Assembly: GCF_038632915.1 (NCBI RefSeq)
Contig: NZ_CP152050.1
Span: forward strand, 2,139,001 to 2,203,000
Source: Paenisporosarcina sp. FSL H8-0542
Lineage (GTDB): Bacteria; Bacillota; Bacilli; Bacillales_A; Planococcaceae
DNA length: 64,000 nucleotides
Direction of reading: 5' to 3'
Shown here: positions 5,655-29,974 of the stretch, in pieces
How positions within the stretch are numbered: the stretch's first letter is position 1
Layout: each line of letters begins with the position of its first letter
The notes under the pieces: model-generated
What the model saw: the letters and a program-made list of their open reading frames with translations, nothing else
The model's database searches: none
What the model was told of the DNA's origin: nothing
Translations under genes and position numbers: made by a program

Positions 5655-5709
5655 AAACAGTAGCCTCAAAGGATGGCTGCTGTTTTTCAACATAAGCACC
5701 CGTTACTTC
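5655..5709. repeat. Degenerate dispersed module: central stem plus H2 remnant
   Basis: The stem AAACAGTAGCC/GGCTGCTGTTT (5655-5685) is followed by TTCAACATAAGCACCCGTTAC, a decayed H2. H1 is not recognisable. It lies downstream of the gene ending at 5748. Confidence 0.55.
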
Positions 5710-5747
5710 GTATATTACTTTGAACGAAAGAATCCGGATCAAATGGG

Positions 5748-5954
5748 TTAAACTTTTTGTTTTTTTCTTTTATCCAATAAATAGAAGGCTATCGCTGCTA
5801 TGAATAAACCCGTACTTAGCCATAAAGCTATTCCATTCCAATTTCCATTAAAAAGGGTGATATTGGTAAGCGTGATGAGATGCATTAAAACAATTAGAAT
5901 TAATAAACCAGTTGACGTTTTCAGATTACCACTCCATTCTGTGTACTTATTCAT
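5748..5954 (-). CDS. Small two-helix membrane protein
   Basis: 68 residues with two membrane segments (about 13-34 and 41-60) and a basic C-terminal DKRKKQKV. The ribosome binding site (AAGTAAG) is weak. I do not recognise it; it may be a cassette-like accessory gene between dispersed modules. Confidence 0.5.
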   Translation of the reverse strand: MNKYTEWSGNLKTSTGLLILIVLMHLITLTNITLFNGNWNGIALWLSTGLFIAAIAFYLLDKRKKQKV

Positions 5955-6145
5955 TTCTTACTTAGACTTTTAATTCCAACATCGAGATAAAAAAAGTAAA
6001 AACTCATTTTTTAAGCTACAAAGTAATGGTTTTTATTAGTTGATTTAAATTACTTCAGTTAAAAAGTTCAGCAAATTTATATACTCAAAACATAGCATAA
6101 GCATAACATTAAAAATCCCTTAGTTGGATATATTTAGAATATTTT

Positions 6146-6172
6146 TTGAACTAACCTGGTCCGTTAGTTCGG
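6146..6172. repeat. H1 hairpin fused to a recombinase remnant
   Basis: TTGAACTAAC, CTGGTCC, GTTAGTTCGG: an H1 copy with one loop change. It abuts directly, on its right, the broken tyrosine recombinase sequence that starts at 6171. Confidence 0.65.
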
Positions 6173-6534
6173 TTGTCGAATCGGAGAAATCATTTCGTTA
6201 GAAAGGAACCATATTAATTGGTCCAATCGATCTGCTTAAACGCTATATGGAGAGTCGCACAGAAAATGCCCCGGCCATCTTCGTCACAGTAAGACATCCC
6301 CATAAAATGAATGTCGCCCAAATGAGATACATCATCAAGAAGATTACATATCGTCCTGGAAAAGAGATCCATCCCCATCTACTTAGAAACAGCTATGCTA
6401 CTCATTTGTTGAATATTGGAACACCCATTGAAGTCGTTCAAAGTCTTCTGGGACACGAGAAGAGCGCCCCCCTCTGATTTACGCTCAACTAAGCGAAAGA
6501 CTAAGGAAAGAGTATTTTCAGAAGTACTTTTAAA
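6171..6534 (+). pseudogene. Tyrosine recombinase (XerC/D-like), C-terminal remnant
   Basis: Three frames are needed to read it. GCRIGEIISLERNHINW starts at 6171, in the region that carries the first catalytic Arg. A shifted frame gives GPIDLLKRYMESRTEN and then HPHLLRNSYATHLL (HxxR), and LLGHEK (6450-6464). A second shift near 6470 leads to LIYAQLSERLRKEYFQKYF and a stop at 6534. The N-terminal core-binding domain is missing. The gene is dead, and is enclosed between an H1 hairpin on the left and a stem plus H2 on the right. Confidence 0.8.
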
Positions 6535-6542
6535 TGTAAAAA

Positions 6543-6597
6543 GGGCAACGTCATAATTGACATTGCCCAAATTGACTAAAGCGCGCTTTAGTTGAAG
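6543..6597 (-). repeat. Module stem and H2 after the recombinase remnant
   Basis: Stem GGGCAACGTC/GACATTGCCC (6543-6568, one G-T pair), preceded on the plus strand by AAAAAGGG, then H2 variant TTGACTAAAGCGCGCTTTAG. Read on the minus strand the stem is followed by a T-run. Confidence 0.6.
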
Positions 6598-6725
6598 AAG
6601 GAATATTAGCATGCTCTAGTTACATAGGTTAATTTTAGCAATAGTAATAAAAAATTGAACGATTTAACTTCTTAAAACAGCTTTAATCGAATATTTAAAT
6701 ATCGAATTACATTGGGGAGTGAAAC

Positions 6726-8171
6726 ATGGGGGCTATTAATGGAAAAGATTATATTTACCGATTAAACCAGCTTAACAATGAGATTTGGTACGACGGTGAA
6801 AAAATTGAGGGGTTGCTCTCGGAACACCCTGCATTCAAAGGACTTATTCAGTCAAAAGCGGCTCTTTATGATTTGCAACATGACCCAAAAATAAAAGATG
6901 AGATGACTTTTATTTCCCCAGTCTCAGGTGAACGTATTGGACTTTCCTTTTTGCAACCAAAAACGAAAGAGGACTTAATAAGAAGAAGAAAGATGATTGA
7001 ACATTGGGCTAGGTATTCAGGTGGTGTCATGGGAAGAAGCCCAGATTATTTGAACACAGTTTTAATGAGCTTTGCCTCTTCGGTATCCTTTTTAAAAAAT
7101 AAAGACAAATGTTTTCCGAATAATCTGCAAGCGTTTTATGAATTGGCTAGAGAAAATGACCTGTCGTTTACACATACCTTTGTTTCACCACAAGTGAATC
7201 GTTCTGAAATCTACTTTGAAGATACCGATGAGCCACCAATCGCCGCAAAAGTTATTGATACAAATGAAGAAGGAATCATCATTAAAGGAGCCCGTCTTCT
7301 TGCTACGCAAGGTGGTTTAACTGATGAGTTATTAGTATTTAGCGTTGGTAAATTTCTATTTAATGAAGATGAAGCTTTTGCTTTTTCGATCCCTTCTAAC
7401 ACGAAAGGAATAAAGTTTATTTGTAGGGATTCATTCATCGGAGGACAATCTTCTTTTAATTATCCATTAAGCTCGCGATTCGAAGAAATGGATTCTATCG
7501 TTGTCTTTGACAATGTATTGGTACCTTGGAATAGGGTATTTTATTACAACAATGCGGAAGTAGCCGAAGAATTCCCAATTCAAAGCTCTTTCAATCCCTT
7601 TACTAAGCACCAAGTTTTGAATAGACAAATTGTAAAAATAGAGTTCGTCTTAGGTATTGCTGAGCTTCTTATCGAAACGATTAATATTAACGGGTATCAA
7701 CATATTCAAGAAAAGATGTCAGAAATCATCATTGGTCTAGAAACGATGAAAGCCTTGTTAGAAAAATCGGAGAATAACGCAAAATTAGATGAATGGGGAT
7801 ATATGCGTCCAGATATTTTCCCGCTTCAAGTTGCTGGTAACATTTTCCCGAAAATTTATCCTCGTTTCACTGAAATTATCCAGTTAATCGGAGCTAGTGG
7901 AATGATTACATTGCCAACTGAAAAAGCATTTCATTCTATTATTAGAAATGACTTAGATATTTATCTTCAAGGAGCAAATAAGACCGCAGAGGAACGTGTA
8001 AAAATATTTCGTTTAGCTTGGGATCTAACAATGAGTTCATTCGGAACTAGACAAACCCAATATGAGCGATACTTTTTTGGTGACCCAATTCGATTATCAA
8101 GCGATTTATATAAGAAATATCCAAAAAATGAATATGTAGAGGTAATTAATAATTTCTTAAATCTAAAATAA
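6726..8171 (+). CDS. hpaB: HpaB-family 4-hydroxyphenylacetate 3-monooxygenase (oxygenase component)
   Basis: 481 residues, the normal length of the family. It matches flavin-dependent phenol hydroxylases of the HpaB/YoaI group: GKDYIYRLN start, MIEHWARYSGGVMGRSPDYLN (about 98-118), KGARLLATQGGLTDE (about 187-201) and the C-terminal YERYFFGDPIRL. Such enzymes use FADH2 supplied by a separate reductase to ortho-hydroxylate phenolics such as 4-hydroxyphenylacetate. No reductase or degradation genes are nearby, so the substrate is uncertain. GGGGAG precedes the ATG. An ATATTTAAATAT palindrome 6691-6702 just upstream could be an operator. It is a lone plus-strand gene. Confidence 0.85.
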   Translation: MGAINGKDYIYRLNQLNNEIWYDGEKIEGLLSEHPAFKGLIQSKAALYDLQHDPKIKDEMTFISPVSGERIGLSFLQPKTKEDLIRRRKMIEHWARYSGGVMGRSPDYLNTVLMSFASSVSFLKNKDKCFPNNLQAFYELARENDLSFTHTFVSPQVNRSEIYFEDTDEPPIAAKVIDTNEEGIIIKGARLLATQGGLTDELLVFSVGKFLFNEDEAFAFSIPSNTKGIKFICRDSFIGGQSSFNYPLSSRFEEMDSIVVFDNVLVPWNRVFYYNNAEVAEEFPIQSSFNPFTKHQVLNRQIVKIEFVLGIAELLIETININGYQHIQEKMSEIIIGLETMKALLEKSENNAKLDEWGYMRPDIFPLQVAGNIFPKIYPRFTEIIQLIGASGMITLPTEKAFHSIIRNDLDIYLQGANKTAEERVKIFRLAWDLTMSSFGTRQTQYERYFFGDPIRLSSDLYKKYPKNEYVEVINNFLNLK

Positions 8172-8238
8172 GAAGAATAACAGAAGTTCAATTATTGTCT
8201 TAAATAAAGGTTTGAATATTCCTTTTAGGATCAAAATA

Positions 8239-8280
8239 GAACGCTCAATCTTTTTATACATTGAGCGTTCTTTTATTTTT
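8239..8280 (+). terminator. Rho-independent terminator after hpaB
   Basis: Perfect 11-bp stem GAACGCTCAAT/ATTGAGCGTTC with a T-rich tail TTTTATTTTT, 68 bp downstream of the hpaB stop. Confidence 0.85.
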
Positions 8281-8396
8281 ACTAGGATTCCATGCACTTT
8301 TAACAATATTTCATCAAAAAAGAACAAATTTAAGGAGACCCAGTAAAACACTTTATTAAAATTTAATTTTCATCGGAGTTTAATAAGAAAATATTT

Positions 8397-8792
8397 TTAA
8401 CTTTCATCAAAGAGTTTTTCTGTTCGCTCCATTATTTGGTTGTTTGTTTTATAGTAAAAATCATTAATTTTAGATGTGGTAAAAAAGATCTTCACATCAT
8501 TTTCTTCAAAAAGTTTTACTGAATATTTATAACCAACTCTGCCTTCTTGGTTTTCTTCAGGTTCAAAAGTAATTTCCTTGATACTATCTAACCAATCATC
8601 AATAATTTCTACATCTGTAATTGTTTTTAGTTTTCCACCACCGTGTCTAATTTCAATTTTTGTCACATGAGAAAGATTAGCAGGATAAATTTCTTGAAAT
8701 GTCATTGGCTTAAGTTGGACTTCTGATTGACAACCAACTATAAAAAATAAGCAAAGAAATAAAGCAATAGATCTAAATTTGTTTAAATTCAT
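8397..8792 (-). CDS. Putative lipoprotein of unknown function
   Basis: 131 residues with a type II signal peptide: MNLNKFRSIALFLCLFF and lipobox IVGC, giving a lipidated Cys near residue 21. The mature part is mostly beta-type with IEIRHGGGKLKTITD and a long acidic stretch. The pattern HGGGKLKTITDVEIIDDWL recalls small Bacillus lipoproteins with a helix-strand repeat, but I cannot name a family. Confidence 0.7.
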   Translation of the reverse strand: MNLNKFRSIALFLCLFFIVGCQSEVQLKPMTFQEIYPANLSHVTKIEIRHGGGKLKTITDVEIIDDWLDSIKEITFEPEENQEGRVGYKYSVKLFEENDVKIFFTTSKINDFYYKTNNQIMERTEKLFDES

Positions 8793-8844
8793 ATATTTCC
8801 CCCCTCATTAAATCCCGCATTTTCAACATAATTTGTACTCATTG

Positions 8845-8931
8845 TTCAGCTAACCTGCCCCGTTAGTTCAATAAGAAAAAAAGCTGCCTAAGCAGCCCGA
8901 TGTTTTTTACTAAAGCACCCGTTTGTTTAAG
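8845..8931 (-). repeat. Dispersed module: complete H1-stem-H2
   Basis: H1 (TTCAGCTAAC, CTGCCCC, GTTAGTTCAA), then ATAAGAAAAAAA, stem GCTGC/GCAGC (8883-8896), then H2 remnant TAAAGCACCCGTTTGTTTAA. It lies immediately downstream of the GNAT gene ending at 8945; on the minus strand it reads GCTGC-TTAG-GCAGC-TTTTTTT, a classic intrinsic terminator. Confidence 0.8.
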
Positions 8932-8944
8932 TAGAATGCTTCTT

Positions 8945-9427
8945 TTAGTTATCCAAATTCTTTTTCATCAGTGTAAAAACTACTGGATGTCCAAAAAATT
9001 CGCCTTTATTTTCTTTTATTACCTGGAATCCTTCATTTTCATAAAAAGAAATATTGGAGTTCCCTTTATACACTGTTAACGATAAAGAAGTTGGTTCCTT
9101 GTATTTTGCAATTCCACTTAGCAATAGTTGTTTTCCAATCCGTTTTCCTTGGTGATTAGGGTGTACATACAAGGACTCTAAGAACACGTCTTTTTCAGAT
9201 AAATTTCCTGAGAAAAAAGCATATCCCATAATCTCTTCATTATTTTCAGCTACCAAGTTTAGAGAGGATTTAAACCGATTATTCATCTCCACATTAGAGT
9301 AAGCATCCTGTAAAACTTTATCTTGTATTTCATATGGAATAAACCTACTATATGTATCCCTCCAAGTTGCAACTGCAATAGCCCTGACTCGTTCAATATC
9401 TGATATGTTCATTTCTCTTATTATCAT
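8945..9427 (-). CDS. GNAT family N-acetyltransferase
   Basis: 160 residues with the GNAT fold: N-terminal MIIREMNISDIERVRAIAV, the acetyl-CoA loop motif HPNHQGKRIGKQLL (about 92-105; Q/RxxGxG/A type), and FYENEGFQVIKE near the end. The protein should transfer acetyl from acetyl-CoA to an amine, but the substrate cannot be read from sequence. Confidence 0.9.
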   Translation of the reverse strand: MIIREMNISDIERVRAIAVATWRDTYSRFIPYEIQDKVLQDAYSNVEMNNRFKSSLNLVAENNEEIMGYAFFSGNLSEKDVFLESLYVHPNHQGKRIGKQLLLSGIAKYKEPTSLSLTVYKGNSNISFYENEGFQVIKENKGEFFGHPVVFTLMKKNLDN

Positions 9428-9501
9428 ATTGCATCCCCTAATTTAGTTTTATTGAATCCACCTAAATTATGTAATTCTTCGTTCTTTAGTAAAAACCCTT
9501 C

Positions 9502-9573
9502 TCCAACTAAACTGACCCGTTAGTTAAACAAGAAATGCATTACTCATATTGAAGTAAAGCACCATTAGTTCCA
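9502..9573. repeat. Dispersed module: H1 and H2, weak centre
   Basis: H1 variant CCAACTAA, ACTGACCC, GTTAGTTAAA, then AAGAAATGCATTACTC, then H2 variant TGAAGTAAAGCACCATTAG. It lies between divergently transcribed genes, so here it does not follow a gene end. Confidence 0.65.
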
Positions 9574-9661
9574 CAAAATGATTTTAAGGTAAAATAAGGT
9601 AAAATATAATGGGAAGCATGTTTATCGTTTAAAAAACCTAGTGAGTAAGGAGTGTTTTGTT

Positions 9662-10033
9662 ATGAAAGAAAAGATTATATTCATTTTCGTCTTTCTATTT
9701 TCCATAATGTTATTGGGAGGATGTAACGAAGATGAAACTTCAATGTCACCTTTACCATTAACAGAAATTATCGCTGAAGAACCTTTAATTATCGGCTATA
9801 TCGTCGAGGTTAATGAAGAAAAACAAGTAATTGCGATTGTCGAAAACATAACAAAACAAGTAGCCATAGACTGGAAAGACAGTCAAAGCCTTGATGTATA
9901 CTGGTTATTTTCAAACGGAACAAAGTTTGATGGAAAATTGGTAAAAGGTAACAAGATAGCTGTATGGAAGACTGGAGATGGACCAGAGAAAACTGGAGAA
10001 ATTGCTGAACGTATCATACTCTTAGAAAAATAA
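9662..10033 (+). CDS. DUF3221 lipoprotein
   Basis: 123 residues. A TAAGGAGTG site at 9646-9654 selects ATG 9662 rather than the upstream in-frame GTG 9641. A signal peptide and lipobox LGGC (Cys about residue 22) are present. The mature part carries the DUF3221 beta-barrel-like pattern with IIGYIVEVNEEKQVIAI and a conserved VWKTGDGP segment, as in YobA-like Bacillus proteins. Function unknown, outer face of the membrane. Confidence 0.75.
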   Translation: MKEKIIFIFVFLFSIMLLGGCNEDETSMSPLPLTEIIAEEPLIIGYIVEVNEEKQVIAIVENITKQVAIDWKDSQSLDVYWLFSNGTKFDGKLVKGNKIAVWKTGDGPEKTGEIAERIILLEK

Positions 10034-10093
10034 GAAATGTAAAAAAATAGACATTAGACAATAAAACCATCCATTCCATTTTCAAACTGGGTT

Positions 10094-10140
10094 GTGTGTG
10101 GCATACACAACCTGTTGACATAACCCCCGGATTAGGAAGT
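10094..10140. repeat. Degenerate direct repeat, copy A
   Basis: The segment with GGCATACACAA, TTGACATAACCCCCGG and AGGAAGT resembles copy B at 10956-11004 (GGCATGCACAG, TTTACATAACACCCCG, CGGAAGT). The two copies bracket the DinB gene. Confidence 0.45.
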
Positions 10141-10148
10141 CTTCGACT

Positions 10149-10215
10149 TTATTACTCAATAAGAAAAAGCTGCCATGTAAAAGGCAGTATCAGTAAATTT
10201 CATTTAAGTAACTCA
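10149..10215 (-). repeat. Degenerate dispersed module: central stem
   Basis: CAATAAGAAAAAG precedes the stem CTGCC/GGCAG at 10170-10187, as in the full modules. H1 is unrecognisable and H2 is reduced to CATTTAAGTAACTCACCC. Confidence 0.45.
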
Positions 10216-10334
10216 CCCAAAATTATCGCCACTCCATTTTCATCATTGGTCTCTGTTATTTAAAAAATTGAAATAATTGGAATTAATCGATATAATCGTT
10301 TAATTGAATAAAATTGACACAAAGGGTGATAAAA

Positions 10335-10877
10335 ATGAAGACATTAGAAAATAAGAGATTTATTGTTGAAAATAAATTAGGCTATACTCCAATGATTGGA
10401 AGATTATTATCCATGATGGATTATACACGTTCGACCACATTAAATGCAGTAGATGGTTTATCAGTAGAAGAACTGGATTATCGTATAAATGGCAAGGGAA
10501 ATTCAATTGGTTGTCTTTTGTATCATATGGCATGTGTTGAAGAAGTCTATCAAATTTCGACATTTGAAGACCGTGATCCTACTAAAGAAGAACTTCAAAG
10601 GCTTAATGTAGGATTAAAACTTGGTGAAAAGGCACATAAAGAAATCAAGGATAAAGAAATTGAATTCTATCTTGAACAGTTAAGTAAAGTAAGAGAACGC
10701 ACGCTAGATTTATTTAAGCAAATAGAGGACATCTGGTTGGATGAAGTTTCACCATTTGGTCCTGATCATGTAGCTAACAACTATTTCCGATGGTTTCATG
10801 TATTTGAAGATGAGCTAAATCATCGAGGTCAAATCCGTCTAATTCGCAACCATATGAATAGAGAACAGGAGAACTAA
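10335..10877 (+). CDS. DinB/YfiT-like four-helix protein
   Basis: 180 residues. ATG 10335 follows AAAGGGTGAT; an in-frame TTG 10314 has no such site. It matches the DinB superfamily: an early His in a helix (GCLLYHMACVEEVYQ, about 63-77), and a late helix with HVFEDELNHRGQIRLIRNHM carrying two further His residues, the usual metal-binding triad. Members act in thiol-dependent detoxification or have unknown roles. It is flanked by degenerate direct repeats. Confidence 0.8.
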   Translation: MKTLENKRFIVENKLGYTPMIGRLLSMMDYTRSTTLNAVDGLSVEELDYRINGKGNSIGCLLYHMACVEEVYQISTFEDRDPTKEELQRLNVGLKLGEKAHKEIKDKEIEFYLEQLSKVRERTLDLFKQIEDIWLDEVSPFGPDHVANNYFRWFHVFEDELNHRGQIRLIRNHMNREQEN

Positions 10878-10955
10878 TATTTAATATGAGTTTTCGACTG
10901 TATGCTAGTGTAATAATCTTATCGATGTATCCAGCCACTCCCTCGCTACACGTGA

Positions 10956-11004
10956 GTGTACACGGCATGCACAGTAGGTTTACATAACACCCCGACTCGG
11001 AAGT
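10956..11004. repeat. Degenerate direct repeat, copy B
   Basis: Partner of the copy at 10094-10140, same orientation, about 70% alike by eye over roughly 45 bp. Confidence 0.45.
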
Positions 11005-11163
11005 TAGCCCCTACGAACCAATCCCTCCCCCCTCACTTCTTCTCCTTTCCACCCATCCATTTTTGATTCACCCAATTTACAGCGTTGAGTTGATGGGCTT
11101 TTGGTTGATTCACTTTTCCCCTCTAATGAATAAATATCCAATCTGTCTTGGGATTTAGGCAAT

Positions 11164-11222
11164 AAAAAAAGACCGTCTCTGACGATCTCCTGTTCCTCAA
11201 CTAAAGCAACCGTTAGTTGAAG
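11164..11222 (-). repeat. Dispersed module: stem plus H2
   Basis: AAAAAAAG, then the stem CGTC/GACG, then H2 (CTCAACTAA, AGCAACCG, TTAGTTGAAG). It lies 10 bp beyond the stop of the methyltransferase gene. H1 is absent. Confidence 0.65.
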
Positions 11223-11232
11223 ATGATACTCT

Positions 11233-12030
11233 TTACATGTTTTTTAAAGCAAGTTTGACCGATGTATTTATTTGTTCTTTGAACACACCAGTTTTATCAA
11301 TAGCTAGTAGTTCCTCTTTTAAATGTTTTTCAAAAAAATCAACGTTATCTCCAAGAAATCGTTTAGCACCAAAAGAAGTTGAATAGTGATTTCCGATTAT
11401 AGAGTCAAGTGTCCATACCTGCTCATAAGAAGGCATTTGATGAATTTCTAAGTCAAACTTTGAACTTGATATAATATCCTGATGGCTAACTGTAGGATGA
11501 CTGTATGTAATATTCCCTGCTCTCCTTTCATTGCCATACCAATGTTTTACCACCTCTTGGACTTTCTCTTGCCAAGGTAGAAGCACATCCTTAGGAGAGT
11601 AATTATCTATAATAGCTATTCCACCACCAATAGCAATCATTTCGTACAAACTATCAAGAACTTTTGGTCGATTCATCCAGTGAAATGCCTTTGCAATCGT
11701 TACAAATCTAAAGGTTGTATTGTTTGTACTGTTATATTTTTCAATATCACCAATAAACCACTCTGTATGTTCAACCCTAAATTCCTTACTAAGTCTTTCA
11801 GCCTCCTGAATCATCTCACGTTCCGTATCTATCCCAACAATTTTTTCGAACCAATCAGAGAACCTTAATGATAATCGGCCATCACCGCATCCCAAATCTA
11901 GCATGTGGCCATTTCCATCTAAAGAAAACTTACTTCTTAAAAATCTAATTAAAGAAGCAGAATATAATGGTCTATTTCGTGAATAATACCAAGCTGTACC
12001 TTTAAACAAATCTTCTCCGTAATCTTTCAT
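11233..12030 (-). CDS. Class I SAM-dependent methyltransferase
   Basis: 265 residues. Motif I is MLDLGCGDGRLSLRF (about 43-57), the acidic post-I residue is in IVGIDTER, and AKAFHWM near 114-120 with IGGGIAIID complete the Rossmann methyltransferase pattern. Members methylate small molecules or lipids; FHWM is common in UbiE-like/trans-aconitate-type enzymes. The substrate is not evident. Confidence 0.85.
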   Translation of the reverse strand: MKDYGEDLFKGTAWYYSRNRPLYSASLIRFLRSKFSLDGNGHMLDLGCGDGRLSLRFSDWFEKIVGIDTEREMIQEAERLSKEFRVEHTEWFIGDIEKYNSTNNTTFRFVTIAKAFHWMNRPKVLDSLYEMIAIGGGIAIIDNYSPKDVLLPWQEKVQEVVKHWYGNERRAGNITYSHPTVSHQDIISSSKFDLEIHQMPSYEQVWTLDSIIGNHYSTSFGAKRFLGDNVDFFEKHLKEELLAIDKTGVFKEQINTSVKLALKNM

Positions 12031-12108
12031 TTTATAATCCTCCTTATTTAAGCACCCAAAGGCATAAAAATCTTCTACATGTCTGGCTTAGTAAATCAAC
12101 AGAATAAT

Positions 12109-12197
12109 GCGTTAATCCTTCTTGGATCAACGCATCATTTAGTCTTATTGTAATTTGGTTTGCCTTCTTCAACTAACCTGCCCCGTTAGTTGAAGAA
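12109..12197 (-). repeat. Dispersed module: variant stem and long H1
   Basis: A variant central stem GCGTTAATCC/GGATCAACGC (12109-12133) precedes a 13-bp perfect H1 (TTCTTCAACTAAC, loop CTGCCCC) at 12165-12197. H1 abuts the stop codon of the gene ending at 12198. The same variant stem recurs at about 17496-17520. Confidence 0.75.
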
Positions 12198-12623
12198 TTA
12201 CTTTTTTAATGTGAGTAGAGTTTTCTCGGCTATTTCAATGTCATCCATATCAAACATACTAATATTGATTGTTTGGTCTAATTTCTTGTTTCTTTCCTCT
12301 GATTCCTCACCAACCCAACAAGTATATAGTTCACAATAGTCTCCTCGCTCAAGATGACTATCTAGAATCTCAAGTAAAGCTTTCAAATATTGTTGTTGTT
12401 TTTGGTAATTGTGAGGTGAATTTTTTTTATCCTTTTTGTATAAAGAAAGACCTACGCTTTCTGCAGTAGCTACTTCATAAATATATTTAGTTGTAATGTG
12501 TTTACGAACATCTTCTCTATCATATTTACTCGAAAAGTTATTACCTACAATAATTAAGTCATCGCTCTCTTCATAGTTAATTGGAAGCGTGAAATTACAA
12601 CCTAAATAATTTGTCAAACTCAT
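12198..12623 (-). CDS. Hypothetical cytoplasmic protein
   Basis: 141 residues, no signal or membrane segment, rich in charged residues; contains YCELYTCWVGEESEERNKKL and a helical C-terminus. I do not recognise a family. Its stop codon touches the long H1 hairpin, which suggests that gene and hairpin have moved or been maintained together. Confidence 0.6.
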   Translation of the reverse strand: MSLTNYLGCNFTLPINYEESDDLIIVGNNFSSKYDREDVRKHITTKYIYEVATAESVGLSLYKKDKKNSPHNYQKQQQYLKALLEILDSHLERGDYCELYTCWVGEESEERNKKLDQTINISMFDMDDIEIAEKTLLTLKK

Positions 12624-12652
12624 TTGAATTCATTCTCCTTTTGGTTTACCTT

Positions 12653-12736
12653 GTTCAACTAACCTTTAGTTCAATAAGAAAACGAGTTGTAAAGCAGCCC
12701 GGTGATCTTTAACTAAAGCACTCGTTAGTTGAATAA
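12653..12736 (-). repeat. Dispersed module with shortened H1
   Basis: GTTCAACTAACCTTTAG is an H1 lacking its CCCCG loop. Then CAATAAGAAAACGAGTTGTAA, AGCAGCCCGGTGATC and H2 (TTAACTAA, AGCACTCG, TTAGTTGAA). Downstream of the gene ending at 12809. Confidence 0.65.
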
Positions 12737-12808
12737 GAATTTTCATTGATGCTCATTTAAACTGAAAAAATGTAATTTGTTTTTAAGTAGTTGAATAATG
12801 CAACTTCA

Positions 12809-13234
12809 TTATTTGATAACCACTTTAATTCCCCTAAATGGTGTCCGAATACTAACATCATAAAACGGAGTGCTTTCCCAGTTATTCAGCTCAACAACTT
12901 TATCAATACCTTGCTTTAGCTTATCGAGTATTACTTCTTTTTTCTCTTGGTCATCTAATTTTAAAAATTCGCATACATCAAAAAGAATTTCTACATCGCA
13001 AAAGCCATCTACAACATTAGAATTCGCCTCTGGAAATTCTTTTACACAGAAAATATTAATTTGGCTAATATCGGTTGTATTAAACTTTGAGAAACTACTT
13101 TCGTAAAGAGAGGTTATACATCTTGATTGAAACGACAGTTTTTTATGTACCTCTTTAATTCCCACGTCCTCATTTACATACAAAAAAAATTCCTTAAAAT
13201 CATTAGTCATCACCCATTCATAATTTCTATTCAA
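12809..13234 (-). CDS. Hypothetical cytoplasmic protein
   Basis: 141 residues; no membrane segment. Contains CDVEILFDVCEFLKLDDQEKK and ends SIRTPFRGIKVVIK. Family not recognised. It has the same length as the neighbour at 12198-12623, but I see no clear similarity between the two. Confidence 0.55.
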   Translation of the reverse strand: MNRNYEWVMTNDFKEFFLYVNEDVGIKEVHKKLSFQSRCITSLYESSFSKFNTTDISQINIFCVKEFPEANSNVVDGFCDVEILFDVCEFLKLDDQEKKEVILDKLKQGIDKVVELNNWESTPFYDVSIRTPFRGIKVVIK

Positions 13235-13247
13235 AGTTCCCTCACTC

Positions 13248-13280
13248 TTCTTCGACTAAACTGCCCCGTTAGTTAAGAAG
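13248..13280. repeat. Solo H1 hairpin
   Basis: CTTCTTCGACTAA, ACTGCCCC, GTTAGTTAAGAAG, downstream of the membrane-protein gene ending at 13299. Confidence 0.65.
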
Positions 13281-13298
13281 GTTTCAATAATGTAATCT

Positions 13299-13901
13299 TT
13301 ACGTAACCCCATTCGGTTCTTTCTTTATCTTCACAATTACTATGTAAAAAACAATGCTTACTACTATTAAACAAAAGGTAACATTTTGCGAAAAACCAAC
13401 AATATCTCCCCAGCTACTTGTACCGTATAAAAACAACTGAAAGATTAAACCTACAAGTAAAATTAGTAGTGCATATGGCGTTTTTTTTAATAAAAACCCT
13501 GTAATTCCACCAAGAATACCACCGATAGCTGAAGCACCGCCCCAAATTGCATAAACAAGTGCCTGTTCTTTAAATGATGATGATACTGTTGTTTCTATAT
13601 AATTGTGTCCAATCGCGAAGTAAAAAGTAATTGCACAAATTGTATAAATGGATCCAAGAAATGCAGCTTTACTAATGTTATTCGCAAATAGATAGCCAAC
13701 AAGCATTGCAAGAATAAACCACATTGGTAAAGAATTAATCGTTATCGCTAAATAGAAAATGACGAATTCAAGAACTGTAACACCATCAGCTATAATTGGT
13801 AAATGGTCGGAAATAACTGAGAAAATACCGACAATTAAACCAACAACAAGTGTAAAAATAATAAAACTTCTCCAATTCCCTTTATATTCTTGATTCTCCA
13901 T
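13299..13901 (-). CDS. Polytopic membrane protein (DUF6518-like)
   Basis: 200 residues with about six membrane segments; glycine-rich GGASAIGGILGGITGFLL (about 123-141) lies in the middle. ATG 13901 has GGAGGGAG at the right distance; a TTG six bases upstream is too close. It resembles small hypothetical integral membrane proteins of bacilli. Function not inferable. Confidence 0.65.
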   Translation of the reverse strand: MENQEYKGNWRSFIIFTLVVGLIVGIFSVISDHLPIIADGVTVLEFVIFYLAITINSLPMWFILAMLVGYLFANNISKAAFLGSIYTICAITFYFAIGHNYIETTVSSSFKEQALVYAIWGGASAIGGILGGITGFLLKKTPYALLILLVGLIFQLFLYGTSSWGDIVGFSQNVTFCLIVVSIVFYIVIVKIKKEPNGVT

Positions 13902-13922
13902 TAACAAAACTCCCTCCTCGAC

Positions 13923-14469
13923 TTAATTTGTCTGTTCTTGAACCACTGTAAATCCAAATATTTTTTCAATTTTAGTCACTTTAAGTATTAGGAGACCTAT
14001 CATAGTACCTAAAGTATTTAATATAATATCATCAATATCGAACGACCTGTTGGGAAGTAATAGTTGAATAATCTCTATAAACGTTGAACTTAATACACCG
14101 ACTAAAACAACACTCATCATATTGTTTAGTCTCTTGAATTTTAAAATTAGAATGAATCCTAAAGGCGTAAATAAGATGATATTTCCTAAAATATTTCTTA
14201 AGGGAACCATATAATAAAAGTGATTTAATAATTCATTAATACTTGCAAACGGCACAAAATTATTAGGTAAATCCTATTCAGGACCAAAAGCTATTTCAAG
14301 TGGAAAAATTGTTAGTCCTATGATTCCCATCACACTTATGAAGTAAAGAAGATTTACCACTTCTCGTTTAAAATCAAATTTCTTATTAATAATGGTAAGG
14401 TTAAAAGCCTTAAAAATTATCCATATAATCGTAATTGCTATTGCGGGGTAGAGAAATTGGATTCTAATA
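13923..14469 (-). pseudogene. VanZ-like membrane protein with in-frame stop
   Basis: The VanZ pattern is clear: LGNIILFTPLGFILIL (near codons 23-38 of the open 3' part), then IEIIQLLLPNRSFDIDDIILNT. The open 110-codon part begins at GTG 14255, but the same frame continues upstream through a TAG at 14274-14276 into YPAIAITIIWIIFKAF and LLYFISVMGIIGLTIFP, the missing N-terminal helices. Even that part starts with ATT at 14469. The gene therefore looks inactivated, unless the amber codon is suppressed or the short form is made. Confidence 0.7.
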
Positions 14470-14775
14470 AATCACACATCCTTTTTTATATATAAAATTA
14501 CATAAGGAACAAATTATACCATTAACTAGTCAGATAACGTGTTAGGTCAAGATATATGTTAATTACCATTTCTTATTGAACTAACCTGCCCCGTTAATTT
14601 AATAAGAAAAAATGCAAAAAATGCTTTACTCTTTCTTGAAGTAAAGCACCCGTTAGTTGATGAAGCCACCTGCATATTCTATACCAAAAACAGATTCAAA
14701 TAGTGCACGTTCATTGCAAAATATAGCCCCTGTATATGTTAGACAACAGCCGAATTTCTACGGGGGCGTTTGCTA
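14470..14775. other. Intergenic region with a complete module
   Basis: Holds the H1-centre-H2 module at 14575-14664; otherwise A+T-rich and without a supported gene. Confidence 0.4.
14575..14664 (-). repeat. Dispersed module: complete H1-centre-H2
   Basis: H1 (TTGAACTAAC, CTGCCCC, GTTAATTTAA), AAGAAAAAATGCAAAAAATG, then H2 (TTGAAGTAA, AGCACCCG, TTAGTTGATGAA). It lies about 110 bp downstream of the anti-sigma gene ending at 14776. Confidence 0.7.
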
Positions 14776-15804
14776 TTATTTTTTTAAGTCAACGATAATC
14801 GGATCAAGCTCAATTTCGATATGACCTTTTCCGGACATAAGACTCGCAATTTCAACAGGCTGAATGATGAGCTGGCTAGCACCTTCTTGGATAGCGCCAA
14901 GTGCGGCTGTTCCGTTAAATGTTTTCCCATTATCGGGTGACATGCCTGAACCACCCGACCCATTCAAGTACACATGACCGAGATCATCGGTTACATAGAA
15001 AACAGGTGACACACTTGGCCACTCTTTTAACAGTTCATCAGTTACCACTTGTTCATATAAAATAACGGTTGAAACGTCTGTAAATTCAACAGATTGAAGC
15101 GTGAAGCTCATGTCTTTATGCAGGACAGTTTCATTGACGAGCTGTATATCTCCCTCTAAACGCTTTAATGAAAAGGCGAACGACCAATCTCCCTCAACCT
15201 CTAAATCATTCGACATACTATAAAAGGCATGTGGAGTCCAAGTGACTTCCACCGTTTCTGGAGATACATCATCTTTGAAGCGTGGCGTAAATGTTGATAA
15301 GCCAACATAACGTGTATCACTAATCTTTGTAATTTGACTACCGCCACCACTACTACCGCTTGCACCGACGGCATCAAACCAATTTGGCGCACTCATATGC
15401 ATCTCTTTTCCAAATTCATGATTAGTTTCAATCGCAAACGACACAGTGACGTTAGTGCCGTCATATACCGCATTGTCAATCATGACTGTAACACCATTAC
15501 TCGTCTGCGCAAGATCAATATTAGTAGAGAAGGTCTCAAAATTTTTGTAGTGCTGCTCTTCGTTATTAAAATAACTAATGACATTATCCATAAACGGAAT
15601 TTGTGATGCAAAAGACGGGAATGCAAAACCGGTTGCTGTAGTGGCACCAACAATCATAACTGCAGCGACTGCAATATGACGCCAGATTGGTGATTTTTTA
15701 CGCTTATTAAGTACATTTTGTTTAACTTGTGCTTTTTCAATATCTGTCACCTCTAGAAGCTCAAGTTTATCGATATCTAAATCAATCCATTCTTTCATAC
15801 TCAT
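14776..15804 (-). CDS. DUF4179-type anti-sigma factor (second copy)
   Basis: 342 residues. Cytoplasmic N-terminus (1-38), one membrane helix (about 40-62), then NGVTVMIDNAVYDGTNVTVSFAIE, the DUF4179 core. The extracytoplasmic part is shorter than in the paralogue at 3373-4656. It shares the ATGA overlap with the upstream ECF sigma gene, so the two are co-translated. By family it should sequester that sigma factor. Confidence 0.85.
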   Translation of the reverse strand: MSMKEWIDLDIDKLELLEVTDIEKAQVKQNVLNKRKKSPIWRHIAVAAVMIVGATTATGFAFPSFASQIPFMDNVISYFNNEEQHYKNFETFSTNIDLAQTSNGVTVMIDNAVYDGTNVTVSFAIETNHEFGKEMHMSAPNWFDAVGASGSSGGGSQITKISDTRYVGLSTFTPRFKDDVSPETVEVTWTPHAFYSMSNDLEVEGDWSFAFSLKRLEGDIQLVNETVLHKDMSFTLQSVEFTDVSTVILYEQVVTDELLKEWPSVSPVFYVTDDLGHVYLNGSGGSGMSPDNGKTFNGTAALGAIQEGASQLIIQPVEIASLMSGKGHIEIELDPIIVDLKK

Positions 15805-16364
15805 ATGAATCGCTCCTTTAGCCTCATGTTTGTAGCTAGTATCTTCTTACCTCGATATAGGCGGTTATCAACAGCAGCTTTCGTTAGCCGGAGTGCATCG
15901 GCAATTTCACTGTTTGGTAGCTCCATATAATATTTCATCATAAAAATATCGCGGTCAATTTCCTCTAGTTGACTGATTGCCAGTAATAATTCATTTTTTT
16001 CTTCTCGTTGCAAGACGGATAAATCTGTTTGTAGGGAGCTTGCTTTTTGTTCGAGTGGTGCATCCGATTGTTCATGTGCGATTTGTTTTTCAGCGTGCCG
16101 ATATCGATCGATTGCTTTGTATTTCGTAATCATGCCAATCCATTTTTTAAAGTCTGGTGTATCACCTTGAAACTGATGAGCATTTTGCCAAACCGTTAGA
16201 AAAACATCATTGATACATTCATCAATATCTGGTCGCTTCATATTGTGTAAAATTTTTGTAGCAATTGTTTTCACGAGTGGCATATAGGCATCAATGATAT
16301 ACTCGAGTGCATCTACTTTTTGTTTTTTTAATCTAGTGATAAAGTTGGTCGATGAACTTTTCAT
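15801..16364 (-). CDS. ECF RNA polymerase sigma factor (second copy)
   Basis: 187 residues. Region 2 is around PDIDECINDVFLTVWQNAHQF (about 51-71) and WIGMITKYKAIDRYR; region 4 around YYMELPNSEIADALRLTKAA (about 145-164). AAGGAGCGAAG precedes the ATG. It belongs to a different ECF lineage from the copy at 4640-5170, although both pair with DUF4179 anti-sigmas. Confidence 0.9.
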   Translation of the reverse strand: MKSSSTNFITRLKKQKVDALEYIIDAYMPLVKTIATKILHNMKRPDIDECINDVFLTVWQNAHQFQGDTPDFKKWIGMITKYKAIDRYRHAEKQIAHEQSDAPLEQKASSLQTDLSVLQREEKNELLLAISQLEEIDRDIFMMKYYMELPNSEIADALRLTKAAVDNRLYRGKKILATNMRLKERFI

Positions 16365-16536
16365 TTACTTCGCTCCTTATGTGATTGAAAAAGCATTTTC
16401 ATAAAGTACAACGAACAGTCTTACAGTTTATTCTCAAAAAATTTCTAGAATTTTTTGTTTTTTCACTCATTAGTGTAACTTTCAAATAAAGAATAAGCGA
16501 AAGTTCGAACAGAACTTCAATATTAAAAATAATAAA

Positions 16537-16580
16537 AAGAATCCATTTTGAAAAAAGATTTAACAAAATGGATTCTTTCT
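16537..16580. terminator. Perfect 14-bp hairpin, possible terminator
   Basis: AAGAATCCATTTTG and its exact complement, loop of 13 nt, followed on the plus strand by TCTTG. The loop and left arm (CCATTTTGAAAAAAGATT) recur at 29030-29047. Confidence 0.5.
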
Positions 16581-16630
16581 TGTAATTATTATATAAAGTT
16601 TTTATAAAAAAATTTGATTATTTTCTTGGT

Positions 16631-16665
16631 TCTTATTCAACTAAAGCACCCGTTAGTTGAACAAG
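16631..16665. repeat. Solo H2 hairpin
   Basis: TCTTATTCAACTAA, AGCACCCG, TTAGTTGAACAAGA: 14-bp arms with few mismatches. It lies 45 bp downstream of the gene ending at 16710. Confidence 0.7.
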
Positions 16666-16709
16666 ACATTTTTATTGTTTCTATTTTTTACAATACCTTT
16701 AAATTCGGA

Positions 16710-17219
16710 TTATATCGAAGGAAGAAAAAAGACGATTACAAAGAGGAGAAACACTGTCCATACAAATGATAGTTCAATTTTTTTCTCATTTGAAGTACTC
16801 CTTTTTATTGTCTTATGGACTATTGATAGAACTAAAATATTAATTAAAAATAGAAAGTAGTAAATGATTATGTATAATATCCAACGACTATTTTGTATTA
16901 CTTCGTCTAAAGGAAATAAAAGAAAAGAACTAATGAAAACAATTACTGATATAACCATAATAAAGGAAATAATTATATGCATTTTTTTCCATATAGGGTG
17001 CAATAAAAACGTTTTGCTTTTTTTAGTTTGAAAAATCATTAATAAACTGAACAAGCTTATAACGATAGTAATAAATACTAATGTTAATACCATTGTTATT
17101 ACAGGACTCGATGACATCTGTGTTGATATTTCTTCTTTGAAAAAATCCATTAAAATCGAGAAAATTACTAAAGAGAGAACTACAACCCCTTGAAAAAAAG
17201 TCCAGCGTGAAAACAACAT
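16710..17219 (-). CDS. Four- or five-helix membrane protein
   Basis: 169 residues when started at ATG 17219, which has GGAGAGGGG just upstream; the open frame extends 24 codons further. Hydrophobic segments are visible near 7-24, 42-63, 80-103, 113-135 and 150-168. Family not recognised. Confidence 0.6.
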   Translation of the reverse strand: MLFSRWTFFQGVVVLSLVIFSILMDFFKEEISTQMSSSPVITMVLTLVFITIVISLFSLLMIFQTKKSKTFLLHPIWKKMHIIISFIMVISVIVFISSFLLFPLDEVIQNSRWILYIIIYYFLFLINILVLSIVHKTIKRSTSNEKKIELSFVWTVFLLFVIVFFLPSI

Positions 17220-17377
17220 AAACAAACCCCTCTCCGTGTTTTCATTTACCCCCAAATTGTAATATTCCCCTACGTATTTTTGTGAAACCATTATAAGTAT
17301 CTCATTTTGAATAACTACTATTTAATTATATTTACGTTTCGACATACTATAGGTTTCATTTATTTCCTAAGATTCTT

Positions 17378-17407
17378 TATTCAACTAAACTGCCCCGCTA
17401 GATTAAA
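17378..17407. repeat. Solo H1 hairpin
   Basis: TTATTCAACTAA, ACTGCCCC, GCTAGATTAA. Confidence 0.6.
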
Positions 17408-17447
17408 ATTGATATTCATTCTTTGTCCCCCAGTTTCATGTTTTATT

Positions 17448-17522
17448 TCTTGAACTAACCTGCCCCATAGTTTAATAAATTCAATAAAAAATAGAACGTT
17501 AATCCTTCTTAGATCAACGCAC
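17448..17522 (-). repeat. Dispersed module: H1 with variant stem
   Basis: TCTTGAACTAAC, CTGCCCC, ATAGTTTAATAAA, then CAATAAAAAATAG and the stem AACGTTAATCC/AGATCAACGC, the same stem family as at 12109-12133. Confidence 0.65.
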
Positions 17523-18710: not shown

Positions 18711-19012
18711 TGTCTTAATATATTGTCAAAACATTTTAAATAACCTTATCCTTTGAGGGTAGCTTTTTCTTATTGCTTTTAAGAGTTCGTAAAAGTGACC
18801 CTTTAGTTGAATAAGAAAAAAAGCTATCTAAACAGCTAAATGATCTTCAAGTAAAGCACCCGTTCTTATTCACCATAAAATATAATTTATGAAGCTTTTA
18901 AAAAACGTTGTTACCGCCAAATAAACCCCCATTCTTACTTCCTTGTTTTTAAAACTTAATTCAAATCGTTCACTCATATACTCCACCCCATTTATATCTT
19001 TATTCAACTAAT
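18711..19012. other. Intergenic region before the insertion sequence
   Basis: Contains the terminator-bearing module at 18796-18868 and then 130 bp without supported features, up to the H1 half at the IS left edge. Confidence 0.4.
18796..18868 (-). repeat. Dispersed module: half H1, stem, H2
   Basis: GTGACCC, TTTAGTTGAATAAG, AAAAAAAGCTATCTAAACAGC, TTCAAGTAA, AGCACCCG, TTCTTATT. Here the module lies downstream of a plus-strand gene but keeps the same orientation as all others. Confidence 0.65.
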
Positions 19013-19184
19013 CTCCCTCTATAAACATTGATGTATCAACGGTTTACATCACTTCGTGATGTGAGGAAAAATATTTTTGACGGTTTCAATAAACATAGAT
19101 TTGAATATATAGTTTTTATTACCAACTTAAGAGTACGCTTCGCTAAAACTAATGGAAATCATTAGCTTTTCTTTGCCATTATGT

Positions 19185-19350
19185 GATGCACAATGGATCT
19201 CTGCGAAACTTATGATGACGGACCCTCCCATGTCTCTTAGCGTCAGTGCGCTTACATTCCTTCGTTTGGTCTATTCATAAGGCAGAGGCCTGCTAAGCTG
19301 CCCCGGGGACTCATGGTCTTAGTTTAGTTATGTTGCTGGCTTCTCCGTGT
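19185..19350 (-). ncRNA. Predicted bridge RNA (seekRNA) of the IS110 element
   Basis: Read on the minus strand, the 5' loop holds AACTAAACT (19321-19329) and CGGGGCAG (19298-19305), enclosed by the stem GCCAGC/GCAGGC. The first equals the left half of the H1 target with its CT core (flank is AACTAATCT); the second is the exact complement of the right half CTGCCCCG. Further 3', AGGAATG (19255-19261) equals the element's right end before CT, and GAGGG (19223-19227) pairs with CCCTC at its left end. The order target loop then donor loop matches known bridge RNAs. RNA ends are estimates. Confidence 0.6.
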
Positions 19351-19384
19351 CATCCTTCTTGTCATAAATCGATCATCGAAATGT

Positions 19385-20662
19385 TTACGCTGCCTCTGAG
19401 AGGCAGTAAAGATCCTTCATCATATACTGCTCATTAAAATGGACTTTCTTTTTACATATGCCATGTAATACTTTCAGTAATTTACCGCACAAGACCACCA
19501 TTGATTGCTTACCCCGTAAGGGATTTTGTTTGCGTGTTGTGTAGTATTCATGAAGCTGTTTAAACGCCGCGTTATGACGTATGAGTGGAACTATTACTTT
19601 GAAGAGGATATATCTGAGTTTCTTTCGCCCTCTTTTCGAGATATGTTTTTGTCCCTTATGTTGACCAGACGAGTTTTCACGTAGTGTTAATCCCGCTAGT
19701 TTGATAAGTTGGCGTGGATTTTCATAAAGTGAAAAGCTCCCTACTTCAGAAAGTAAATCAACAATCGTCGCATCTCCTAAACCAGGAACGGAACTGAGTA
19801 ACTCATATTCCATTGTTGTTTGTGCCATTTCGGCTAATTGATTATTTACAGAGGCAATTTCGGTTTCTAATAAGCGATACTGACGTAGGAGCGTGGCGAT
19901 TTCATGTCGGGCCATCTTTTCTCCTTCTTTCAGGCCGATTGAGTTAGTCGAAGCTTCAATGAGAAGCTTTGCTTTCGGCAACTGTGGCGTTCTCATACCC
20001 TCTACCTCACGGTATAGAAAAACCAACTCCTCAGCTGTTTTCCCTTCAATATCCTGTGGAAATGGAGTCATTTCCAATGCCGCCAACGCCATCTTTCCAA
20101 AAGACGGAAAGACTTGAGTAAACTCTGGAAAATAGCGATCAAGCCAACGGACGATTCGATTTTTAATACTCGCTAAATCTTCCGTTAACTTTGAACGGAG
20201 AGTAGATCCGATACGAAGTTCAGCTTCTACCTCTTTTAACAAACGTGGATAACTAAAACGGCCATCCTTCAATAAGCGTGCGATGACCAACGCATCTTTT
20301 TTGTCGTTCTTTGTTTGTAAATTATCGTCCAGTTCCTTCGAACGTTTGACGTGCATTGGATTTACCATGACGAGTGGAATGCCATAGTTACCTAAGAAAT
20401 AAGCCAAGTTCATCCAATAGTGGCCTGTAGGCTCAATTCCAACGATAACGTCTGTTTTCTTAGCTTCCTTCATGGTTTGACGAATCTTTTCATACAAACT
20501 TTCAAAGCCTTCTTTTGATTGATTTACTGCAAAGGATTTTTCAATCACACGCCCTCGTTCATCGACAAAGCACGCATAATGAACACGCTTGGCAATATCC
20601 ATACCGACAACGAGTGTATTTTCAGTCACTTGATTAATTTTTTCATTGCATTTAAACTGCAT
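19385..20662 (-). CDS. IS110-family transposase (DEDD recombinase)
   Basis: 425 residues. The RuvC-like DEDD domain is at the N-terminus: GMDIAKRVHYACF (first Asp about residue 21), VIVGIEPTGHYWM (Glu about 77) and TKNDKKDALVIARL (two Asp about 118 and 121). The C-terminal Tnp20 domain is LSSVPGLGDATIVDLLSEVG with AGLTLRENSSGQHKGQK, holding the conserved serine. IS110 recombinases form a composite active site from these two domains and use a bridge RNA to choose target and donor. The frame is intact, so the element may be active. Confidence 0.95.
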   Translation of the reverse strand: MQFKCNEKINQVTENTLVVGMDIAKRVHYACFVDERGRVIEKSFAVNQSKEGFESLYEKIRQTMKEAKKTDVIVGIEPTGHYWMNLAYFLGNYGIPLVMVNPMHVKRSKELDDNLQTKNDKKDALVIARLLKDGRFSYPRLLKEVEAELRIGSTLRSKLTEDLASIKNRIVRWLDRYFPEFTQVFPSFGKMALAALEMTPFPQDIEGKTAEELVFLYREVEGMRTPQLPKAKLLIEASTNSIGLKEGEKMARHEIATLLRQYRLLETEIASVNNQLAEMAQTTMEYELLSSVPGLGDATIVDLLSEVGSFSLYENPRQLIKLAGLTLRENSSGQHKGQKHISKRGRKKLRYILFKVIVPLIRHNAAFKQLHEYYTTRKQNPLRGKQSMVVLCGKLLKVLHGICKKKVHFNEQYMMKDLYCLSEAA

Positions 20663-20752
20663 AGAGAAGTCCTCCTAGTTAGCTGATGGGTCAATGGTCG
20701 TTGACACTCACATCATACTAGAGGGCTTTTTTTCTTTCAAGATGGCACAAAT

Positions 20753-20788
20753 CCTTCAAACAGGAATGCTGCCCCGTCAGTTGAATAT
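20753..20788. repeat. Right half of the interrupted H1 hairpin
   Basis: CTGCCCCGTCAG and TTGAATA from 20769 complete the left half at 19001-19014. The bases before 20769 belong to the IS end in this reading. Confidence 0.6.
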
Positions 20789-29888: not shown

Positions 29889-29974
29889 AATTGAACTAAC
29901 CTGCCTCGTTAGTTGAATAAGAATGAAGAGCTTTCATTACAGCCCAACTATCTTTAACTAAAGCATCCGTTTGA
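29889..29974 (-). repeat. Dispersed module: complete H1-centre-H2
   Basis: H1 (ATTGAACTAAC, CTGCCTC, GTTAGTTGAAT), AAGAATGAAGAGC, then TTTAACTAA, AGCATCCG, TTTGATT. This is the last copy before the core region. Confidence 0.7.

Follow-up and report, generated by a model that had tools for sequence, protein, structure and literature searches.

The bridge-RNA model of the IS110 family comes from IS621, in whose structure the recombinase has 328 residues (PDB code 8wt6). In the sections of PMC11208160 drawn on here, IS621 combines a DEDD and a Transposase_20 domain, uses a 2-bp core (CT on one strand), carries target and donor guides in its RNA and inserts into a dispersed repeat. For the IS1111 group, the corresponding sections of PMC11187229 give transposases of 330-350 residues, and describe the attC-targeting elements ISKpn4, ISPst6 and ISPa25 and the REP-targeting ISPa11 as having their non-coding region downstream of tnp, a seekRNA with a characteristic order of guides, and a repeated, foldable target (attC or REP) to which no bases are added; some IS110-type members also have a downstream non-coding region. 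The sub-terminal inverted repeats (sTIR) that serve as the criterion of the IS1111 group are usually 11-13 bp long.

The attC sites of integrons are imperfect palindromes of the form R''-L''-L'-R', with the crossover in GTTRRRY. In the phylum to which the present host belongs, one complete integron and a few CALIN were found with IntegronFinder 2.0, according to the part of PMC9024848 used here, and among the matches listed in the open PMC literature there was no paper on a cassette system in this group. Two stem-loop families of Bacillus, Bant-1 and Bhal-1, measure 72 and 74 bp in the part of PMC2267715 used here.

The window analyzed here is a stretch of 64,000 nucleotides from Paenisporosarcina sp. 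FSL H8-0542 (G000:C1:2139001-2203000, G000 being the label of the host genome). The analysis is based on sequence, with one representative genome per species and one sister strain, G075. It is very probable that the window contains an RNA-guided insertion sequence of the IS110 family with guides for the loop of a repeated hairpin, H1. H1 and its sister hairpin H2 most likely represent cassette sites.

An IS110-family element in the loop of a repeated hairpin

The interval 19185..19350, singled out in the initial annotation, is the RNA region of the insertion sequence (IS), and the element as a whole extends well beyond it (Table 1). In a profile search, the transposase scored above the cut-offs for both family domains (PF01548, 126.6 bits; PF02371, 74 bits). 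Its solved relatives are IS621 (8wt6) and ISCro4 (9t56), the match to IS621 (E 5e-11) covering the C-terminal part. Non-coding stretches of 372 bp after the gene (19013-19384) and 106 bp before it (20663-20768) complete the element.

Table 1. Features of the window and of related loci. Positions are those of the window unless a contig or locus is named.
Feature	Position	Strand	Basis or remark
IS110-family element, 1756 bp including one core AG (19013-19014)	19013..20768	-	seven identical copies, empty sites
Left end CATTCCT	20768-20762	-	boundary alignment of IS copies
Right end GAGGG-AG	19019-19013	-	boundary alignment of IS copies
tnp, 425 aa, DEDD_Tnp_IS110 and Transposase_20	19385..20662	-	domain matches
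Predicted bridge/seek RNA core (target loop and donor loop)	19194..19355	-	alignment A1
5' target guide AACTAAACT, complement of right half-site AG-(G/T/A)TTAGTT (gene sense)	19321..19329	-	
3' target guide CGGGGCAG, equal to left half-site GGGGCAG (gene sense)	19298..19305	-	covaries with flank, 38 insertions
Donor segment AGGAATG, complement of left end CATTCCT	19255..19261	-	invariant in 38 sequences
Donor segment GGGAGGG, contains right end GAGGG	19223..19229	-	invariant in 38 sequences
H1 loop CTGCCCC and arm GTCAGTT, left-end side of IS	20769..20782	+	
Other H1 arm AACTAAT, right-end side of IS	19006..19012	+	
H1 array between short genes, with H2 (CTAAAGCACCCGTTAG-like) sister hairpins interspersed	2768..17475	+	
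CTAACCTGCCCCGTTAG-like H1 in array	starts 2773, 5321, 6151, 8850, 9507	+	
CTAACCTGCCCCGTTAG-like H1 in array, continued	starts 12173, 13256, 14581, 17385, ~17455	+	
Further H1 copy	29896..29912	+	
C-terminal fragment of Xer-like tyrosine recombinase, within H1 array	6247..6477	+	
Reciprocally exchanged H1/H2-bounded units	G000:C1 2521837-2523652, 2772325-2773452 (L135, L139)		comparison with G075
Clade 2 loci, part 1	L081-L086, L088, L090-L092, L094-L096		
Clade 2 loci, part 2	L177, L180-L183, L185-L199		

The host genome, a single contig of 3.63 Mb, holds seven identical full-length copies, with protein identity of 100%. In gene sense their identity spans 1763 bp (19013-20775), outside which the flanks diverge, and the first seven bases of this block, GGGGCAG, are target. 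An eighth transposase match is the 67-residue remnant of a related transposase, 76% identical (G000:C1 2550857-2551057, L008), and a counterpart of equal length and identity is found in Paenisporosarcina sp. HGH0030 (L117).

All seven copies lie in the loop of an H1 hairpin, at an identical point and in identical orientation, at GGGGC-AG^GTTAGTT; the pattern common to them is [A/T]ACT[A/G]A[C/T]-GGGGC-AG^CATTCCT ... GAGGG-AG-[G/A]TTAGTT. In the sister strain G075, which belongs to the same species and contains no transposase match at E <= 1e-60, three of the seven orthologous sites carry an uninterrupted H1 hairpin (alignments of 600 bp at 98.7%, 529 bp at 95.7% and 600 bp at 100%). Apart from the IS, not a single base is gained or lost at these three sites, and target duplication is absent beyond the 2-bp core AG, which is common to the target and the IS ends. 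For the remaining four, the G075 stretches compared did not contain an orthologous empty site. Three of them (L001, L002, L006) retain one contiguous flank only, as expected if the adjoining gene unit has moved, and for the fourth (L003) the match is limited to a 140-bp stretch with another H1. The listing of the genome copies and the empty sites bear out the proposal of the initial annotation that the element is aimed at a repeat and not at a unique site.

The 7 bp GGGGCAG, being identical in all seven genome copies, could also be taken as part of the element, in which case the guide match discussed below would be the element matching itself. However, the uninterrupted H1 copies at the three G075 sites contain GGGGCAG with no change besides the IS, and the loop CTGCCCC is carried by dozens of uninterrupted H1 copies in the host genome, so that this reading has hardly any probability left. 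The element is best explained as an IS110-family transposon that appears to be active or recently active.

With respect to classification, the element has the traits of the IS110 family in the broad sense, namely both domains, a 2-bp core without further target duplication and, judged by sequence, an RNA with target guides (by covariation) and donor guides (by match). It shares with IS1111 the non-coding region downstream of tnp and the order of the guides in the RNA, the complement of the top strand preceding the match to the bottom strand. Its transposase of 425 residues falls outside the IS1111 range. A search of the terminal 60 bp on either side of the window element gave no inverted match of at least 9 bp at 85%, and IS1111 membership by sTIR was rejected. 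As transposase size and the missing sTIR are of the IS110 type, while the position of the non-coding region and the guide order are those of IS1111, the element is filed in the IS110 family and not in the IS1111 group.

Compared with IS621, which has the same domains, core and kinds of guides and likewise a dispersed target, the RNA lies on the other side of the gene, the guide order is reversed relative to the gene, and the transposase is ~100 residues longer. The likeness to attC-targeting IS1111 elements suggested in the initial annotation holds for the repeated target, the layout and the guide order, and fails for transposase size and sTIR; furthermore, set against the systems covered in the consulted part of PMC11187229, the target is a Bacillales hairpin instead of attC or REP, and the host belongs to another phylum. 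The IS, which belongs to a different branch of the IS110 family, may be interpreted as a Gram-positive counterpart of the IS1111-attC elements.

Guides of the predicted bridge RNA and their covariation with the target

The four motifs reported in the initial annotation, AACTAAACT, CGGGGCAG, AGGAATG and GAGGG (inside GGGAGGG), are present on the minus strand where it placed them. It equated the first two with the halves of the H1 loop sequence, which is correct on the CGGGGCAG side and wrong on the AACTAAACT side at one base next to the core: AACTAAACT is perfect only to H1 variants with A before the core, and in the seven host copies (gene sense) the base adjoining the core is G in six and A in one, leaving one mismatch to the 5' guide. 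In general the match of the 5' guide is weaker than that of the 3' guide, and some relatives have an extra base. The donor segments match the IS ends as proposed, a correspondence that amounts to a match and not to covariation because both segments and ends are invariant.

Relatives of the transposase were examined at 99 loci. Ten were duplicates by flank and 17 were excluded as truncated or lacking an end or the RNA motif, and the other 72 yielded 73 insertions in which the RNA motif and the two ends are all present. After two insertions with N letters (L097) were dropped, 71 remained, 38 in clade 1 and 33 in clade 2; relatives at 57-60% identity were left out of this set. Clade 1, with transposases at ~79% identity or more, includes the seven host copies and insertions in Sporosarcina, Viridibacillus, Psychrobacillus, Solibacillus, Lysinibacillus, Domibacillus and further genomes.

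Within clade 1, the 3' guide, 7 nt long, agrees with the left flank at 263 of the 266 bases compared, and the pair is perfect in 35 of the 38 insertions. When guides were shuffled 20,000 times over the insertions, the mean was 242 and the maximum 254 bases, with at best 27 perfect pairs, although these shuffles overstate significance because copies in one genome and in related species are not independent. The covariation of guide and flank that the initial annotation offered as a check is thus found, and it exceeds every one of the shuffles. The perfect pairs comprise GGGGCAG (25), GGAGCAG (5), GGTGCAG (2), GAAGCAG (2) and GCGGCAG (1); none of the GGAG, GGTG and GAAG states is confined to a single lineage, and these loop variants are also found as uninterrupted H1 sites in the hosts. 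Two states can coexist in one genome: in G156, GGAG stands in guide and flank at four insertions and GGGG in both at two. The three imperfect cases are L107 (guide GCAGCAG, flank GGAGCAG) and L173 and L178, each one base off.

An H1-like hairpin, with at least 5 of 7 bases matching in both arms, surrounds 34 of the 38 clade 1 insertions. This is what would be seen if the transposase recognized the hairpin itself, by its fold or its DNA sequence, the guide-like segments being coincidental or relics. Against this, guide and flank vary together. Genome G203 gave no match to the uninterrupted H1 17-mer at <= 1 mismatch and has five copies of the element. Two of them occupy H1-like sites; the other three are outside H1 and nevertheless lie directly behind GGGGCAG (two) or GGAGCAG (one). 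Relatives that keep their guide in unrelated sites had been named in advance as an observation that should count against guided targeting; the G203 exceptions, still placed behind the guide sequence, speak against a required hairpin and not against a deciding guide, and H1 as a strictly required fold is disfavoured by them. Together with the sister clade described below, which has a different guide and a target other than H1, these data make recognition of the hairpin itself very unlikely, and support the reading that target choice follows the guide.

The structure of the RNA was considered on an alignment (A1) to which clades 1 and 2 together contribute 38 distinct RNAs; its scaffold is near invariant, and the two target-guide stretches vary. 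In the fold drawn on A1, the target guides have an invariant GAC/GTC hairpin between them. AGGAATG, a small hairpin and GGGAGGG lie inside a long stem formed by columns 86-98 with 160-177. In this fold 95.3% of the cells pair, as against 28.9-40.7% when it is slid, and the double-change cells and the covariation score exceed those of all 500 shuffles. Four pairs changed on both sides were reached by 55 of the 500 shuffles, and the nine further pair types by 499. RNAalifold returned 33 pairs on A1, with a covariation term of -0.3 and two pairs with double changes; in its solution the closing stem of the target loop is missing, the final bases of AGGAATG are paired with ACAT, and the final G of GGGAGGG is paired with a C upstream of it.

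The few covariation signals in the helices are due to a scaffold that hardly varies, and helix covariation was rejected as strong support for this reason. The window RNA folded singly is no better than its shuffles (z 0.71, 151 of 200 as good), and folding energy was likewise rejected as evidence for a bridge RNA. In an Rfam scan of the window, no family reached its gathering score. Support for the architecture comes from sequence conservation and from the guide matches and not from any strong covariation; the two loops expected from the initial annotation do hold the guides and the donor segments in the drawn fold, with few compensatory changes to accompany them.

In the proposed mechanism, an RNA transcribed from the 3' non-coding region of the IS would bind the recombinase, presenting the 5' and 3' target guides and the donor segments. 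Each strand of the H1 loop would base-pair with one of the target guides around the core AG (CT on the opposite strand), the donor segments would pair with the joined IS ends, and a circular form of the IS would then be inserted between GGGGCAG and GTTAGTT without target duplication. Recognition would follow the guide rather than the hairpin fold, and the abundance and mostly intergenic position of H1 may be the reason why it serves as target.

Clade 2 consists of 33 insertions with transposases at 67-70% identity, none of which is in H1 by the same test of both arms (at least 5 of 7). Its guide ends in AAAGGAG or close to it, as does the flank. Guide and flank agree at 214 of 231 bases, a figure reached by 1 of 20,000 shuffles (mean 203), and 17 of the 33 pairs are perfect (shuffled mean 11.3, maximum 20, P 0.0034). 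A start codon (ATG, GTG or TTG, opening a frame of at least 40 codons) follows 3-14 nt downstream in 23 of the 33 insertions, compared with 1 of 38 clade 1 insertions and 460 of 3600 random flank positions. Clade 2 thus appears to sit mostly in Shine-Dalgarno sites, and its right end GAGGGAG would restore a Shine-Dalgarno sequence. A single scaffold seems to be aimed at two unrelated and abundant targets, H1 and the Shine-Dalgarno sequence.

H1 and H2 hairpins as candidate cassette sites

The H1 17-mer CTAACCTGCCCCGTTAG matches the window 10 times at <= 3 mismatches, with 0.08 expected, and the 15-mer AACTAAACTGCCCCG 13 times with 1.1 expected, the latter including the IS's own guide region at 19291 and a match at 53993 that is probably due to chance. 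The initial annotation counted more than a dozen H1 sequences within 30 kb; the repeat is real, and the count, about eleven plus one split by the IS, was slightly overstated. Through the host genome the hairpin is scattered ~100 times, and among 261 genomes the 17-mer is present in 104, with up to 102 copies; the reversed pattern, used as a control, gave 3 matches in all.

A census of 326 kb of the host genome around H1 clusters, together with the first 32 kb of the window, gave 153 H1 (<= 4 mismatches) and 125 H2 (CTAAAGCACCCGTTAG, <= 3 mismatches). Nearly all of them (150 of 153 and 124 of 125) are on the minus strand below 1.9 Mb and on the plus strand above. H2 follows H1 within 140 bp, mostly at 40-70 bp, in 74 of 153 cases and never precedes it within that distance. 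In gene sense, the H1-H2 composite starts with AACTAAC, contains a terminator-like stem and a T run, and ends with GTTAGTT. In the array at 2461-2481 kb of the host genome, one to three short genes lie between composites. An attC-like asymmetry between the strands of the folded site is weak over 74 composite sites (mean -13.6 versus -12.5 kcal/mol), and was not retained as evidence.

Other replicons were also inspected. In G156, 50 of 51 H1 copies form two runs, minus to 1.77 Mb and plus from 2.07 Mb. In G132:C1 790-1282 kb, H1 is on one strand to 1.19 Mb with a switch by 1.24 Mb, and this switch at ~1.2 Mb is not obviously a replichore boundary. The staphylococcal plasmid pC194 (L244) has an H1-like sequence ~50 bp after its chloramphenicol-resistance gene, and pKKS825 (L245) has three H1-like places, the stretch examined carrying dfrK, tet(L) and aadD.

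Comparison of G075 with the host genome shows that the hairpins coincide with rearrangements. Among 112 breakpoints between blocks of at least 94% identity, 36 lie <= 30 bp from an H1 centre (random mean 2.9, maximum 10). Removal of the eight IS breakpoints leaves 104, of which 35 are this close to an H1 centre (random mean 2.6, maximum 11) and 69 are farther away; 44 lie at <= 60 bp. H1 does not account for the remainder. Between two loci 250 kb apart, a unit of 1.8 kb and one of 1.1 kb have been swapped, and at both loci the left crossover falls inside a ~33-bp common stretch, which is H2, and the right one inside a ~30-bp stretch, which is H1. Other gene units occur with 98-99.8% identity at unrelated loci. 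These relocations with crossovers in H1/H2, like the insertion site, the IS ends, the empty sites and the guide/flank covariation, are visible in the aligned genomes, and the enzyme moving the units is presumably a recombinase.

A candidate is the tyrosine recombinase of which a fragment lies in the H1 array of the window, and which has matches in 74 of 261 genomes at E <= 1e-12. H1 (<= 2 mismatches) was found within ~1.5 kb at 19 of the 30 recombinase loci listed and at 11 was not; all 34 of these nearby H1 are on the strand of the recombinase, and at eight of the 30 loci the start of an H1 falls at almost one place, 857-861 in locus coordinates, a short distance 5' of the recombinase frame. 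Several of the 30 loci hold fragments only, and some relatives are intact. By hand tally, at least 10 H1 are present in 25 of 42 genomes with the recombinase (best E up to ~2e-24) versus 3 of 219 others, and 3 of the 42 contain no H1; H1 abundance tracks the Xer-like recombinase. Three tandem tyrosine recombinase genes are located at G000:C1 2454841-2457419 (L202, L204, L206), ~3.5 kb from the H1 array at 2460.9-2480.8 kb.

The recombinase at L217 scored 89.7 bits against TIGR02249, below its cut-off of 265, and 220.3 against NF040815 (XerA/integron integrase), whose cut-off is 220; by the NCBIfam cut-off it is Xer/XerA-like and not an integron integrase (IntI). In other respects the H1/H2 arrays resemble integron cassette arrays and CALINs: arrays of short genes, many of them followed in gene sense by an imperfect palindrome AACTAAC...GTTAGTT, crossovers in the hairpins with the common GTTAGTT, one base off GTTRRRY, mobile units, and a tyrosine recombinase. 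Unlike integrons, this candidate system has many dispersed arrays and an enzyme that falls short of the IntI cut-off. The site itself also differs, being made of two separate hairpins with an internal terminator-like stem and having no Rfam match.

H1 might instead be only a REP-like or terminator-associated repeat, with the rearrangements produced by RecA-dependent recombination or by IS elements. The terminator-like hairpin and T run of the H1-H2 spacer would fit this, repeats are prone to rearrangement, the recombinase scores below the IntI cut-off and is represented in the host genome by a fragment only, and the loci where H1 is missing nearby point the same way. Against it stand the reciprocal exchange, with ~30 bp common at one joint per locus and crossovers confined to H1/H2, the uniform orientation of H1, the excess of H1-rich genomes among those with the recombinase, and the common strand of the nearby H1. 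On balance, this explanation is unlikely, though less so than the two alternatives considered for the IS.

According to the preferred reading, H1 and H2 most likely serve an integron-like gene-cassette system of Bacillales as its recombination sites. If they are cassette sites, the IS would play the part that IS1111-attC elements have in proteobacterial integrons. A fuller version, that H1/H2 are unrecognized Bacillales cassette sites served by a ~280-residue Xer-like recombinase and parasitized by a naturally reprogrammed, RNA-guided IS lineage whose guide follows the loop variants from host to host, is held to be reasonably probable. Two features go beyond what was expected at the outset: the resemblance of H1 to a cassette recombination site, and the fact that the IS is not a standard member of IS1111.

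Apparent reprogramming of the guide and movement of gene units

The change of guide and site together, between species and within the single genome G156, gives natural evidence for the reprogramming of bridge RNAs, which in the sister clade appears to have led to a wholly different target, the Shine-Dalgarno sequence. The H1/H2 arrays represent an apparent cassette-shuffling system in a phylum with one complete integron and a few CALIN in the consulted part of PMC9024848. H1-like sites on plasmids, including staphylococcal ones near resistance genes, make it testable whether such genes move as units.
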